Source: Luteolibacter flavescens (GTDB lineage: Bacteria; Verrucomicrobiota; Verrucomicrobiia; Verrucomicrobiales; Akkermansiaceae). Taken from it: a DNA stretch of 64,000 nt. The DNA lies in contig NZ_JAPDDS010000001.1 in the NCBI RefSeq assembly GCF_025950085.1, forward strand, positions 620,001 to 684,000, read 5' to 3'. A program made the translations under genes and the position numbers. The number at the start of each line of letters is the position of its first letter. The stretch's first letter is position 1. Shown here piece by piece: positions 51,391 through 55,344 of this stretch. A model generated the notes under the pieces. It saw only the letters and a list, made by a program, of their open reading frames with translations. It searched no databases and had not been told where the DNA came from.

Positions 51391-52521
51391 ATGTTTCAGG
51401 TTCTCGCGCGCGATCCCTCCAGCCAGGCCCGGCGTGGCCGCATGGAATTGGCCCACGGCACGGTGGAGACACCGATTTTCATGCCCGTGGGCACCCAGGG
51501 CACGGTGAAAACCCTGCATCCGGACGAGCTGGAGATGCTCGGAGCCCAGATCATTCTAGGAAATACCTACCACCTGTGGCTGCGGCCCGGGCCGGAAACG
51601 ATCAAGGAATTCGGCGGTCTGCACAAGTTCGCTACTTGGGATCGCCCGATGCTGACGGATTCCGGCGGATTCCAGGTCTGGTCGCTGGCCAAGCTGCGCA
51701 AGATCACCGAGGAGGGCGTGCGCTTCCAGAATCACCTCGACGGGTCGAAGATGATGCTCACCCCGGAGCTGAGCATGGAGATCCAGGCCGCGCTCGGCTC
51801 GGACATTGCCATGCTATTCGACGAGTGCCCCCCCTACCCCTGCGAGCGGATCTACGCCGAGAAATCGCTCGGCCTGACCACCCGCTGGGCAAAGCGCTGC
51901 AAGCACTGGATCGAGACGAACCGCCCCACCAGCGGCACCGGCATCCAGCGCCACTTCGGCATCGTGCAGGGCTCCATCTGGGCCGACCTACGAGAGAAAT
52001 CCGCCCGCGAACTGGTCGATCTCGACTTTGACGGCTACGCGATCGGCGGTGTCTCCGTCGGCGAGCCCGAGGAGGAAATGATGCGCGCCGTGGAGCACAG
52101 CGTCCCCTTCCTGCCGGAGGACAAGCCCCGCTACGCCATGGGTCTCGGCACGCCGCCGCAGATCCTGGAGATGATCGGCCGGGGCGTGGATATGTTTGAC
52201 TGTGTGATGCCTACCCGGGTCGCTCGCCATGGCCAGGCCTTCACCCTCGACGGGCCGATCCATATCAAAAACCTCGCCTACGAGCGGGATCCGCGCCCCC
52301 TTTGCGAGAGCGCCCACCCGCACGTCGCGAGGTTCTCGCGGGCCTACATCCGACACGTTTTCCGTGCCGGGGAAATCCTAGCTTTGCGGTTGCTTTCCTT
52401 CCACAACCTGCATTTCTTCCTCCGCCTTGCCGCCAACGCGCGGGAAGCCATCAGCGAAGGCAAATTCCTTGAATTCAAGGAGTCCTTCATCCGCCGCTAC
52501 ACCCAGTCGAAATCCGAATGA
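51391..52521 (+). CDS. tgt: tRNA-guanine transglycosylase with altered zinc ligands
   Basis: The 376-residue enzyme exchanges guanine 34 of GUN-anticodon tRNAs for preQ1. Family motifs are intact: NTYHLWLRPG, MLTDSGGFQVWSL, GGVSVGEPEEEM, YAMGLGTPPQ and the nucleophile Asp in DMFDCVMPTRVARHG. The Val in GGVSVGE is the residue type of bacterial preQ1-using enzymes. Unusually, the C-terminal zinc site CxCxxC...H is not conserved: aligning on SRAY and the final HNL, the three cysteine positions are Ser307, His309 and Val312, while His338 is kept. Cys305 and His311 are nearby. The start at 51391 is chosen by similarity. The next gene, yajC, overlaps by 4 bases. Confidence 0.96.
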   Translation: MFQVLARDPSSQARRGRMELAHGTVETPIFMPVGTQGTVKTLHPDELEMLGAQIILGNTYHLWLRPGPETIKEFGGLHKFATWDRPMLTDSGGFQVWSLAKLRKITEEGVRFQNHLDGSKMMLTPELSMEIQAALGSDIAMLFDECPPYPCERIYAEKSLGLTTRWAKRCKHWIETNRPTSGTGIQRHFGIVQGSIWADLREKSARELVDLDFDGYAIGGVSVGEPEEEMMRAVEHSVPFLPEDKPRYAMGLGTPPQILEMIGRGVDMFDCVMPTRVARHGQAFTLDGPIHIKNLAYERDPRPLCESAHPHVARFSRAYIRHVFRAGEILALRLLSFHNLHFFLRLAANAREAISEGKFLEFKESFIRRYTQSKSE

Positions 52522-52853
52522 TGCTTTCTCTTGTCACGCTGCTTGCCCAGGCAACCGCCGGCCAATCCCAAGGCGGTCTGTTTGCCCGGCCGGAAATCAT
52601 GATGGTCCTGATGGTCGTCATGTTCTATTTCCTGCTGATCCGTCCCCAGCAGCGCCAGCGTAAGGAACTCCAGAAGCGGATCGACGCCCTGCAAAAGGGC
52701 GACGAGGTGGTCACCACCGCTGGCATCCACGCCATCGTCCATAACATCAAGGACCGCACTGTCGTCCTCAAGGTCGCTGACGGCGTGATGATGGAATTCG
52801 ACAAGCCCGCAGTGGCCACGGTCATCAAGAAGGAAGCTTCCACGACCGCCTGA
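52518..52853 (+). CDS. yajC: Preprotein translocase accessory subunit YajC
   Basis: The 111-residue product has one N-terminal transmembrane helix (IMMVLMVVMFYFLLIRPQQRQRKELQKR) followed by a small cytosolic domain (LQKGDEVVTTAGIHAIVHNIKDRTVVLKVADGVMMEFDKPAV), the standard YajC layout. It associates with SecDF in the Sec holotranslocon. The ATGA overlap with tgt and the secDF gene 43 bases downstream reproduce the widespread tgt-yajC-secDF gene order. Confidence 0.96.
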   Translation: MMLSLVTLLAQATAGQSQGGLFARPEIMMVLMVVMFYFLLIRPQQRQRKELQKRIDALQKGDEVVTTAGIHAIVHNIKDRTVVLKVADGVMMEFDKPAVATVIKKEASTTA

Positions 52854-52896: not shown

Positions 52897-55344
52897 ATGC
52901 TCCCGTCCGCGTTGCTCGCAGTGTCTATCTTGAACGACCCGATGGCCTTGTTCCTCTCCGGACTAGTCCTCCTGATCGTTTTCTTCTGGTACTTCGCCAC
53001 CGACCACGAGCGGCGGAAGAGAAACATCGGCACGTTCCTCCTCGCGGGTGTCTGCGCCCTGTCGCTCCTCGCCATCTTCTCGCCGGGTGCGATCAAGGGC
53101 GGCATCGACCTCGTCGGCGGCACCTCCTTCACCCTCCAGGTGCAGCCGAAGACGGACGAACTGACCGGCCAACCGATCTCGCTGACGACCGATGATGTCA
53201 ATCAGGCGAAGAACGTCATCGCGCAGCGCATCAACGCGCTCGGAACCAATGACGCGATCCCCACCGTGCAGGGCACCGACCGCATCGTCCTGCAGTTGCC
53301 CGGCATGAAGGAGGATGAGGCGAAAGACGTCCGCACCCAGATCGAGAAGGTCGCACGCTTGGAAGTCCGCCGGGTAAACAGTGAAGGCTTCACCCCTGGC
53401 CCGAACGGCAAGACCCTCGCCGAGCGGATCAAGGACAATGAGGAAGCCCGCATTCCCGGCTACAAGGTTTACCAGTACGACCGTGAGCGCGAAGGGGTGA
53501 AGACCACCCAGTATCTCCTGCTGAGCAACCGCATCGCATGGACCGGCAAGGACGTCCAGCAGGCCTACCCCGAAACAAAAGGCACAGATCATATCATCGG
53601 CATCCAGCTCACGGGAGCGGGTGGCGACAAGATGTTCAATCTGACCAAGGACATGGTCCCGGGCCAGGACTTCCTCGCCGTCGTTCTGGACGGCAAGGTG
53701 ATCCTCTCCTCCAGCCTGCGCGAAAAAGGCGGTCTCGGTAAGAATTTCCAGATCGATGGCCAAGAAAGCTTCGATGAAGCCCGCAACCTCGCCAATGCCC
53801 TCAAGAATCCCCTTGAGAACCCTCTCAAGATCATCGAGGAGCGCACCGTCACCCCGACCCTCGGTGCCGCCGTGGTCAAACAGGGTGTCTGGGCCGGTAT
53901 CGTCGGTCTCTCCTGCACGGCTCTTTTCGTCCTGATCTACTACCGCACCGCGGGTCTGATCGCCCTCTTCGGTCTGATCGTGAATACCCTGATGATCTTC
54001 GGGGGCATGGCCGTCTTCGGCTTCACCTTCACCCTGCCGGGTATCGCGGGTATGATCCTCTCGGTCGGCATGGCGGTGGATGCGAACGTGCTGATCTACG
54101 AGCGCCTGCGTGAAGAAATGGCTGCTGGCAAGCCCCTGAAGGTCGCCATCAGTGCCTCCTACGACAAGGCCTTCTCCGCCATCTTCGACTCCAACCTCAC
54201 CTCGCTGATCACGGCCGGTGTGCTCTTCTGGATCGGCAGCGGCACCATCAAGGGCTTCGCGGTCACCGTGGTCATCGGTCTTCTCGCCTCGATGTTCTCG
54301 GCCATTCTCGTGACCCGCGTGCTTTTCCGCTGGGTCAACGACCTGAACATCCTCAAGAAGCTCAACTTCCTGAACCTCATCAAGCCGACCAAGATCGACT
54401 TCATGAAGATGGCGAAGCCCGCCTACATCGCCACTGTCGTGCTTCTCCTGACCTGCATCGGTGCCTCCGTTTTCCGGGGTGAAAAGGCTCTCGGCATCGA
54501 CTTCACCGGTGGAACGGTGCTGATGTACCAGCTTCCAGCCGACAAGGAAGTTGCACAAACAGAGGTCGAGAATGCGCTCGGGTCCCTTCAGACATCGAAG
54601 CTTCCGGTGACCCAGGTGGAGCGATCCGTCGCGGGTGAACTGCTGACGATCCGCTGTGCCACCGAGGATTCGACCAAGATCATCGATCACCTTCGGGAAT
54701 CCCTGCCTGCAACCCTCGGCAGCAAGACCGAGGAAGGCACTTTCGCCATCCAGCCCGGCGTCGATACAATCGAGCCAAGCCTCGGGATGGACTTCCTGAA
54801 GAACGCCGGCCTCGCACTCGCGGCAGGCATGCTCGGCATCCTCATTTACATGACGGTGCGCTTCGAGTTCTCCTTCGCGCTCGGTGGCTTCGTCGCACTG
54901 TTGCACGACGTGCTCCTCACGGCGGGTGTGGTGATTCTCTTCGGCGGTGAGCTCTCGCTCATCCACGTGGGCGCGCTGCTGACCATCGCCGGTTACTCGG
55001 TGAACGACACCATCGTTATCTTCGACCGTATCCGCGAGTCCCTGCGTGACGGTGATGGAGACACGAGGGAGCTGATGAACGAGGCCATCAATGCCACCCT
55101 CTCCCGGACGGTGCTGACCTCGATCTCGACCATCGTCACGGTGGCCATCCTCACCTTCTTCGGCGGATCCGCTCTCAAGGACTTCTCTGCGATGATCCTG
55201 GTGGGCCTCGTGATCGCCACCTTCTCCTCCGTCTTCATCGCCTCGCCGGTGGTGCTCTGGTGGAGCAATCGCAAGGGCGGCAGCCTGCGGAAGGAGATCC
55301 TTCAGACCACGCTGGCCGAGTCGGACATCCAAGCCACTCCGTAA
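52897..55344 (+). CDS. secDF: SecD-SecF fusion protein of the Sec translocon
   Basis: The 815-residue protein fuses SecD and SecF, which use the proton gradient to pull proteins out of the Sec channel. The SecD half starts with GGIDLVGGTSFTLQV, has the periplasmic P1 region with NRIAWTGKDVQQAYPE, and the six-helix core containing VGMAVDANVLIYERLREEM. The SecF half begins near residue 500 (MKMAKPAYIATVVLLLT, GIDFTGGTVLMYQL) with AGYSVNDTIVIFDRIRESLR and SRTVLTSISTIVTVAILTFFGG. It has about twelve helices. Fused SecDF is common in PVC bacteria and Bacteroidetes. Confidence 0.97.
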   Translation: MLPSALLAVSILNDPMALFLSGLVLLIVFFWYFATDHERRKRNIGTFLLAGVCALSLLAIFSPGAIKGGIDLVGGTSFTLQVQPKTDELTGQPISLTTDDVNQAKNVIAQRINALGTNDAIPTVQGTDRIVLQLPGMKEDEAKDVRTQIEKVARLEVRRVNSEGFTPGPNGKTLAERIKDNEEARIPGYKVYQYDREREGVKTTQYLLLSNRIAWTGKDVQQAYPETKGTDHIIGIQLTGAGGDKMFNLTKDMVPGQDFLAVVLDGKVILSSSLREKGGLGKNFQIDGQESFDEARNLANALKNPLENPLKIIEERTVTPTLGAAVVKQGVWAGIVGLSCTALFVLIYYRTAGLIALFGLIVNTLMIFGGMAVFGFTFTLPGIAGMILSVGMAVDANVLIYERLREEMAAGKPLKVAISASYDKAFSAIFDSNLTSLITAGVLFWIGSGTIKGFAVTVVIGLLASMFSAILVTRVLFRWVNDLNILKKLNFLNLIKPTKIDFMKMAKPAYIATVVLLLTCIGASVFRGEKALGIDFTGGTVLMYQLPADKEVAQTEVENALGSLQTSKLPVTQVERSVAGELLTIRCATEDSTKIIDHLRESLPATLGSKTEEGTFAIQPGVDTIEPSLGMDFLKNAGLALAAGMLGILIYMTVRFEFSFALGGFVALLHDVLLTAGVVILFGGELSLIHVGALLTIAGYSVNDTIVIFDRIRESLRDGDGDTRELMNEAINATLSRTVLTSISTIVTVAILTFFGGSALKDFSAMILVGLVIATFSSVFIASPVVLWWSNRKGGSLRKEILQTTLAESDIQATP

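Follow-up and report, generated by a model that had tools for sequence, protein, structure and literature searches.

The tRNA-guanine transglycosylase of Luteolibacter flavescens lacks the zinc-binding cysteine triad and probably works without structural zinc

Two hallmarks are attributed to tRNA-guanine transglycosylase (Tgt), a barrel and a zinc domain (PMC6165067), and the zinc residues of the enzyme are described as highly conserved (PMC4425180). A 64,000-nucleotide stretch of the genome of Luteolibacter flavescens, referred to here as the window, has a tgt gene whose product reads CESAHPHVA where the cysteine motif CxCxxC is expected. Mutation of the zinc ligands of E. coli Tgt leads to loss of both zinc and activity. 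No report of a Tgt without a zinc site was found in the open-access literature searched.

The gene codes for a bacterial Tgt. Its product matches PF01702 with 517 bits and passes the curated equivalog cut-off of TIGR00430 (499.3 bits, cut-off 306.75), while falling below that of the archaeal arcTGT model TIGR00432 (128.3 bits, cut-off 350). The pair of catalytic aspartates, Val223 and the fold are also those of a bacterial Tgt. Downstream are yajC and a secDF fusion gene (Table 1), and both a YajC match and a match to the first 300 residues of SecDF were found at the tgt locus for all 18 rows of the genus (L004-L021); yajC and sec matches also lie near tgt at an enterobacterial locus (L105). 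Val223, the preQ1-type residue, presumably corresponds to Val233 of Z. mobilis Tgt. In the Z. mobilis enzyme, Asp102 is described as the general acid/base and Asp280 as the nucleophile (PMC4425180), with Trp326, Tyr330 and His333 forming an aromatic hot spot of the dimer (PMC5395182). Residues Phe315, Tyr319 and His322 of the window Tgt align with this hot spot and are retained in most rows lacking the triad, with Tyr319 (the Tyr of the SRAY motif) being replaced by Ala in nine Akkermansia-like rows.

Table 1. Features of the tgt locus, in window coordinates; residues are numbered from the ATG at 51391, and rows are those of the 220-row Tgt alignment.
Feature	Position	Strand	Basis
tgt, tRNA-guanine(34) transglycosylase without CxCxxC triad	51391..52521	+	376 aa, complete; PF01702 and TIGR00430 matches
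Asp90, general acid/base (Z. mobilis Asp102)	51658..51660	+	218/218 rows with a letter there, of 220
Val223, preQ1-type residue	52057..52059	+	Val in 218/220 rows, Leu in 2 (L228, L229)
Asp270, nucleophile (Z. mobilis Asp280)	52198..52200	+	220/220 rows
Former zinc segment, Cys305 (codon 52303-52305) to His338 (codon 52402-52404)	52303..52404	+	Alignment; AlphaFold2 pLDDT 95-97
Ser307-Ala308-His309, replacing Cys302-x-Cys304	52309..52317	+	Alignment
Val312, replacing Cys307	52324..52326	+	Alignment
His338, retained fourth ligand position	52402..52404	+	Alignment; Gln in 21/220 rows
yajC	52518..52853	+	PF02699, 92.8 bits; overlaps tgt end
secDF fusion	52897..55344	+	PF02355, 252 bits

The former zinc segment runs RPLCESAHPHVARFSRAYIRH...SFHNL, the same segment also being given as CESAHPHVARFSRAY...SFHNL. 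When the alignment is anchored on SRAY, the zinc ligands, Cys302, Cys304, Cys307 and His333 in E. coli numbering, fall on Ser307, His309, Val312 and His338; the positions and segment coordinates given by the sequence-only reading are correct. Cysteine-bearing relatives such as L042 have one residue more in the loop between PL and SRAY, so that Cys302 might just as well be matched with Ala308, as it is with MAFFT. The residues at the ligand positions are thus Ser307 or Ala308, His309, Val312 and His338, in place of three cysteines and a histidine. Cys305 is the sole cysteine of the segment and lies outside any CxCxxC spacing, which rules out a triad in a shifted register. All solved Tgt chains compared residue by residue (three of Z. 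mobilis type and one enterobacterial-like) possess the triad, and no triad-less structure was recognised among the PDB matches listed. Compared with canonical Tgt (Z. mobilis, E. coli; TIGR00430, PF01702), the window Tgt has the same fold, catalytic aspartates, preQ1-type Val, tgt-yajC-secDF gene order and dimer-interface residues, apart from Phe315 which is Trp in Z. mobilis; it differs in the missing CxCxxC, in the shorter loop and in having just His338 left of the four ligands.

The distribution of the triad was read from an alignment of 220 distinct Tgt rows. One source was a set of 38 genomes from the window's genus, family and order, the genome of the window among them; the others were 240 genomes drawn from the phylum, targeted fetches, and a contig scan of genomes from which the best 80 of 589 loci, those nearest to the query, were kept. 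In the 240-genome draw, the class of the window is covered by all first-copy matches, second matches of eight class genomes being left out, and the other classes by 34 of 155 matching genomes (35 rows).

A full CxCxxC is present in 95 rows, one of its three cysteine positions is still Cys in 36 and none is in 89, such that 125 of the 220 are without the full triad. None of the 18 rows of the window's genus has it, nor do any of the 26 rows of the rest of the family or the five named rows of Akkermansiaceae and Rubritaleaceae. The loss is therefore clade-wide, as an alignment of Verrucomicrobiota Tgts, the check proposed in the sequence-only reading, makes apparent, and its presence in all 18 genus rows, that of the window among them, rules out a sequencing error. 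Within the order, the triad is missing from all 12 first copies of families f2, f4 and f6 and is found in one of two first copies of f3. Further out in the class, it is absent from all 37 rows of families f7, f9, f13, f14, f16 and f17 and present in all nine of f8, f10, f12 and f15. Loss has thus occurred in 11 of the 15 class families for which a Tgt was read. Two other named Verrucomicrobiota rows have (L042) or lack (L043) the triad, and all 35 rows read from the other classes of the phylum have it. Outside the phylum, the full triad is absent from all 25 Bacteroidota rows and present in all 45 others, named or unassigned; the named rows from outside the phylum are a biased sample, coming from the 80 of 589 loci nearest to the query.

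Among the 36 partial rows, 32 retain the third cysteine (families f2, f4, f7, f9, f13, f14 and f16) and four (L022, L023, L027, L144) have one in the column of the first, an assignment that hinges on where gaps are placed in L022, L023 and L144. In the 89 rows with no triad cysteine, the histidine at position 338 is kept in 68 and is Gln in 21; a cysteine is found somewhere in the segment in 24 and nowhere in 65.

Five genomes of the phylum (G034, G037, G030, G025, G133) possess a second Tgt with CxCxxC (L119-L122 and L227), 43-45% identical. L119-L122 extend well beyond the usual end and have Gln at the position of Arg276, where L227 has Ala; in the four genomes of families f3 and f4 coding for L119-L122, the first Tgt also has an eroded triad. 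Family f17 has two divergent triad-less Tgts, L228 and L229, with the segments LPAPASRNFSRAY and LPPSASRNFSRAY respectively, the former on a long branch. In both, Val223 and Glu225 are replaced by Leu and Ser, and they may differ in substrate. One further match (L220/L231, G251:C1:1782437-1783541, genus group g3) covers two overlapping frames, probably owing to a frameshift or an assembly fault.

A tree of 107 rows was built with the zinc columns removed. It derives from a list of 123 rows, which excludes rows at least 80% identical to a kept one as well as the fragments or partial sequences L118, L220, L226 and L230, less 16 full-triad rows. In the window's order, the states found are CxCxxC (L042, L115, L176 and L183, and likewise L149), the intermediate THPLC with the third cysteine kept (family f2 and most of f4), and HPxV-type loops without the third cysteine as the end state (families f1 and f6). 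Another branch of the class has DNYTC as its intermediate and NYTT as its end state, and the rows of f7, f9, f13, f14 and f16 form a separate clade (support 100). The 15 Bacteroidota rows in the tree form one clade (support 100) beside three triad-bearing Ignavibacteriota rows, far from the window's class. Parsimony gives seven changes between full and eroded states on this tree and five on another one built from 125 rows, some of them on weak forks. The triad has been lost separately at least two times, the exact number being uncertain. A single loss common to Bacteroidota and the window's lineage, or a transfer between them, is unsupported by the tree. Those rows with Gln at position 338 that the tree includes cluster with L040, a row named as Akkermansia (support 100), suggesting that the 21 such rows are probably Akkermansia.

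The triad-less gene is under strong purifying selection. Between the tgt of the window and those of 17 relatives of the genus (L005-L021) dN/dS ranges from 0.040 to 0.184, and in 19 of 19 comparisons the non-synonymous difference over residues 300-342 does not exceed that of the rest of the protein, being near-equal to it in a few (L005, L006, L009, L012).

The genome of the window, 97.5% complete, has one full-length Tgt and two distant partial matches. Four other genes of the queuosine (Q) pathway were tested and all are above cut-off, namely queA, queG, queC (two copies) and queF (two copies). As the full-length Tgt is the sole one beside these genes, no other insertion enzyme for the pathway is visible. 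A hidden second canonical Tgt is rejected for this 97.5% complete genome, the partial matches being a DpdA protein (L003) and a weakly DpdA-like protein (L002). According to genome-based statements, the capacity for Q synthesis is typical of Akkermansiaceae and some Bacteroides (PMC11130926), and five Akkermansia strains make all of the vitamins studied except B12 (PMC6593275).

The two DpdA-like genes lie in a defence-like island of the same genome (G000:C11, about 183.5-215.3 kb; L123, L124, L002, L003). The DpdA protein matches padloc PDLC02807 with 398 bits and the second, weakly DpdA-like TGT paralogue scores 44 bits. The island also has HerA/NurA-like, DEAD-helicase and GmrSD-like genes along with a queC and queF pair at 214-215 kb, a gene content that suggests 7-deazaguanine DNA modification.

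The AlphaFold2 model of the window protein, made with 47 relatives, has a mean pLDDT of 92.2, with 95-97 in the ten-residue blocks of 301-340, a confidence that is aided by zinc-bearing rows in the alignment. For the control L042, which has the cysteines, the values are 91.8 overall and 96-98 over residues 311-350, and both models show a short predicted helix after the former knuckle. The PDB matches listed by Foldseek (50 rows) are Z. mobilis Tgt, with TM 0.92-0.95 (by query), rmsd 1.5-1.8 A and 49-51% identity, while VIA-align comparison with the Z. mobilis and T. maritima enzymes gives Z of about 53 and rmsd 1.3 A (range 1.1-1.5 A). The model confidently predicts that the TIM barrel and C-terminal subdomain can be drawn with the normal fold in the absence of the triad; it says nothing on stability without metal.

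Taken together, the window Tgt is probably an ordinary working preQ1 Tgt which no longer needs structural zinc; we infer both that it carries no bound metal and that it is active. The enzyme would replace guanine-34 of GUN tRNAs with preQ1 in the standard way: within the TIM barrel, Asp270 would attack as nucleophile and Asp90 would serve as acid/base. The C-terminal subdomain, normally pinned by zinc, would be held through protein contacts only, and the adjoining residues Phe315, Tyr319 and His322 of the dimer interface would stay in place. In the window's lineage the site would have eroded stepwise, CxCxxC giving way to forms such as THPLC and these in turn to HPHV, with a separate loss in Bacteroidota. 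Points that speak against zinc independence are the loss of activity in E. coli ligand mutants, the histidine at position 338 retained by 68 of the 89 rows with no triad cysteine, and the 24 of those 89 rows with a cysteine elsewhere in the segment.

The sequence-only reading goes too far in stating that the zinc site is required by bacterial Tgt, with triad-less forms in 11 of the 15 class families and in all 25 Bacteroidota rows. Its view that the gene is not simply decayed is borne out by the intact Asp90, Asp270 and Val223, the dN/dS values and the sole full-length Tgt beside the que genes. It had left a choice between a re-wired site and a zinc-free Tgt; the latter is favoured across the family, and the former is possible just in the genus and three near rows.

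In the re-wired form, Cys305, His309, His311 and His338 would bind zinc in a new geometry, the enzyme of the genus thereby remaining a zinc protein. Two of these residues, His309 and His338, occupy original ligand positions. Cys305, His311 and His338 are invariant in the 18 genus rows and His309 is present in 17, being replaced in L016 by Asp, which could bind zinc too; all four candidates are also found in the near rows L037, L038 and L126. However, such conservation is weakly informative because the genus rows agree in 247 of the 376 columns, and the other four cysteines of the protein (146, 151, 170, 271) are equally constant in them. The complete set occurs in just 20 of the 220 rows, these being the 17 genus rows and the three near rows. 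Cys305 is present in 24 rows, of which those beyond the genus and L037, L038 and L126 are L029, L031 and L182, each missing another ligand. Several relatives have Ser, Thr or Phe in place of His311, and His338 is the residue replaced by Gln in 21 rows. Because the candidate ligands vary outside the genus and the three near rows, there is no replacement site common to triad-less forms at large, and since only 20 of 220 rows have all four of them, zinc independence fits the wider family better than a re-wired site. Re-wiring is thus considered unlikely, though it retains some chance for the enzyme of the genus itself.

A further explanation is that intermediates with a single cysteine (HPLC or DNYTC plus His) bind zinc weakly and that full loss came later, giving an active enzyme with lower stability or with activity under certain conditions only. 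The stepwise states, with the third cysteine kept in most partial rows, agree with such a course. However, the purifying selection on the triad-less form, and residues 300-342 that evolve no faster than the remainder, speak against a weakened enzyme and make this explanation improbable. It is hardly credible that the protein has ceased to make queuosine and is decayed or moonlighting, even with one of the two hallmarks of Tgt altered, given its unchanged catalytic residues, low dN/dS, position as the sole full-length Tgt beside queA, queG, queC and queF, and a family described from genomes as typically Q-synthesising.

Zinc independence of the window Tgt may be set beside other triad-less forms. 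Like the window protein, the Tgt of Bacteroidota (e.g., Pedobacter, L052; TIGR00430 485.6 bits) has lost its three cysteines and kept the histidine, but it has other replacement residues (DADSDLHADQVYSKAY) and lies on a separate branch of the tree. The Akkermansia Tgt (L040, probably genus group g3; TIGR00430 472.5 bits) belongs to the same family and has an HPHV-type loop in which, as in the window Tgt, the second ligand position is His; however, with Gln at position 338 and no Cys305, it possesses zero canonical ligands. A precedent outside Tgt is bacterial GluRS, also a tRNA enzyme, in which a zinc-binding domain without zinc is described, the zinc motif is missing in many bacteria and zinc is dispensable (PMC4381286). 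GluRS is unrelated to Tgt, and its dispensability of zinc is reported there as experimentally shown.

The repeated natural loss, which includes the named Akkermansia row and every Bacteroidota row, suggests that zinc in Tgt is probably a removable prop. Triad-less Tgts are natural candidate zinc-free enzymes with which structural and functional roles of the metal could be separated, and cultured hosts exist. The loss is widespread and not peculiar to the genome of the window, which makes this one gene less of a surprise and the phenomenon of more general interest.

The ribosomal proteins of the same genome (L238 and L239, its L31 and L36) may have a bearing on this. Zinc-free paralogues of L31 and L36 are produced under zinc limitation in other bacteria. 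The sole L31 here has no cysteine, and the sole L36, a protein viewed in the window's genome only, is the zinc-free type B (NF002021, 81.1 bits, cut-off 70). L31 was then searched for in 130 genomes chosen from those with a Tgt row, of which 125 could be typed by the presence of CxCG and CxxC (G019, G025, G183, G276 and G287, with no match, were dropped); the comparison excluded the Tgt paralogues L119-L122 and L227. Genomes with an eroded Tgt have zinc-free L31 only in 50 cases and zinc-type L31 in eight, the corresponding numbers for an intact Tgt being six and 61 (n=125; Fisher p = 1.5e-19, a naive value which ignores relatedness). All 19 typed Bacteroidota have a zinc-free L31.

With independent pairs, taken as the mean of 200 pairings on supported branches, 2.2 of 4 pairs differing in Tgt erosion agree and 0 oppose, 1.9 of 6 pairs differing in L31 agree and 0 oppose, and 1.3 of 7 pairs differing in complete triad loss agree with 0.1 opposing. 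None of the sign tests on these pairs is significant, and about two independent events support the link. It is a tentative and somewhat doubtful idea that loss of the Tgt zinc site belongs to a broader remodelling by which Bacteroidota and parts of Verrucomicrobiota spare zinc in their translation apparatus, with Akkermansia, which has neither the triad nor the fourth ligand, as an end point; if true, it would amount to a lineage-wide zinc economy in translation. The six cases of an intact triad with zinc-free L31 only are from Cupriavidus, Calditrichota, Melioribacteraceae, Oligoflexales, Halothiobacillus and G074. The eight genomes combining an eroded Tgt with a zinc-type L31 belong to families f2, f4 and f6, and both types of L31 are present in G026.
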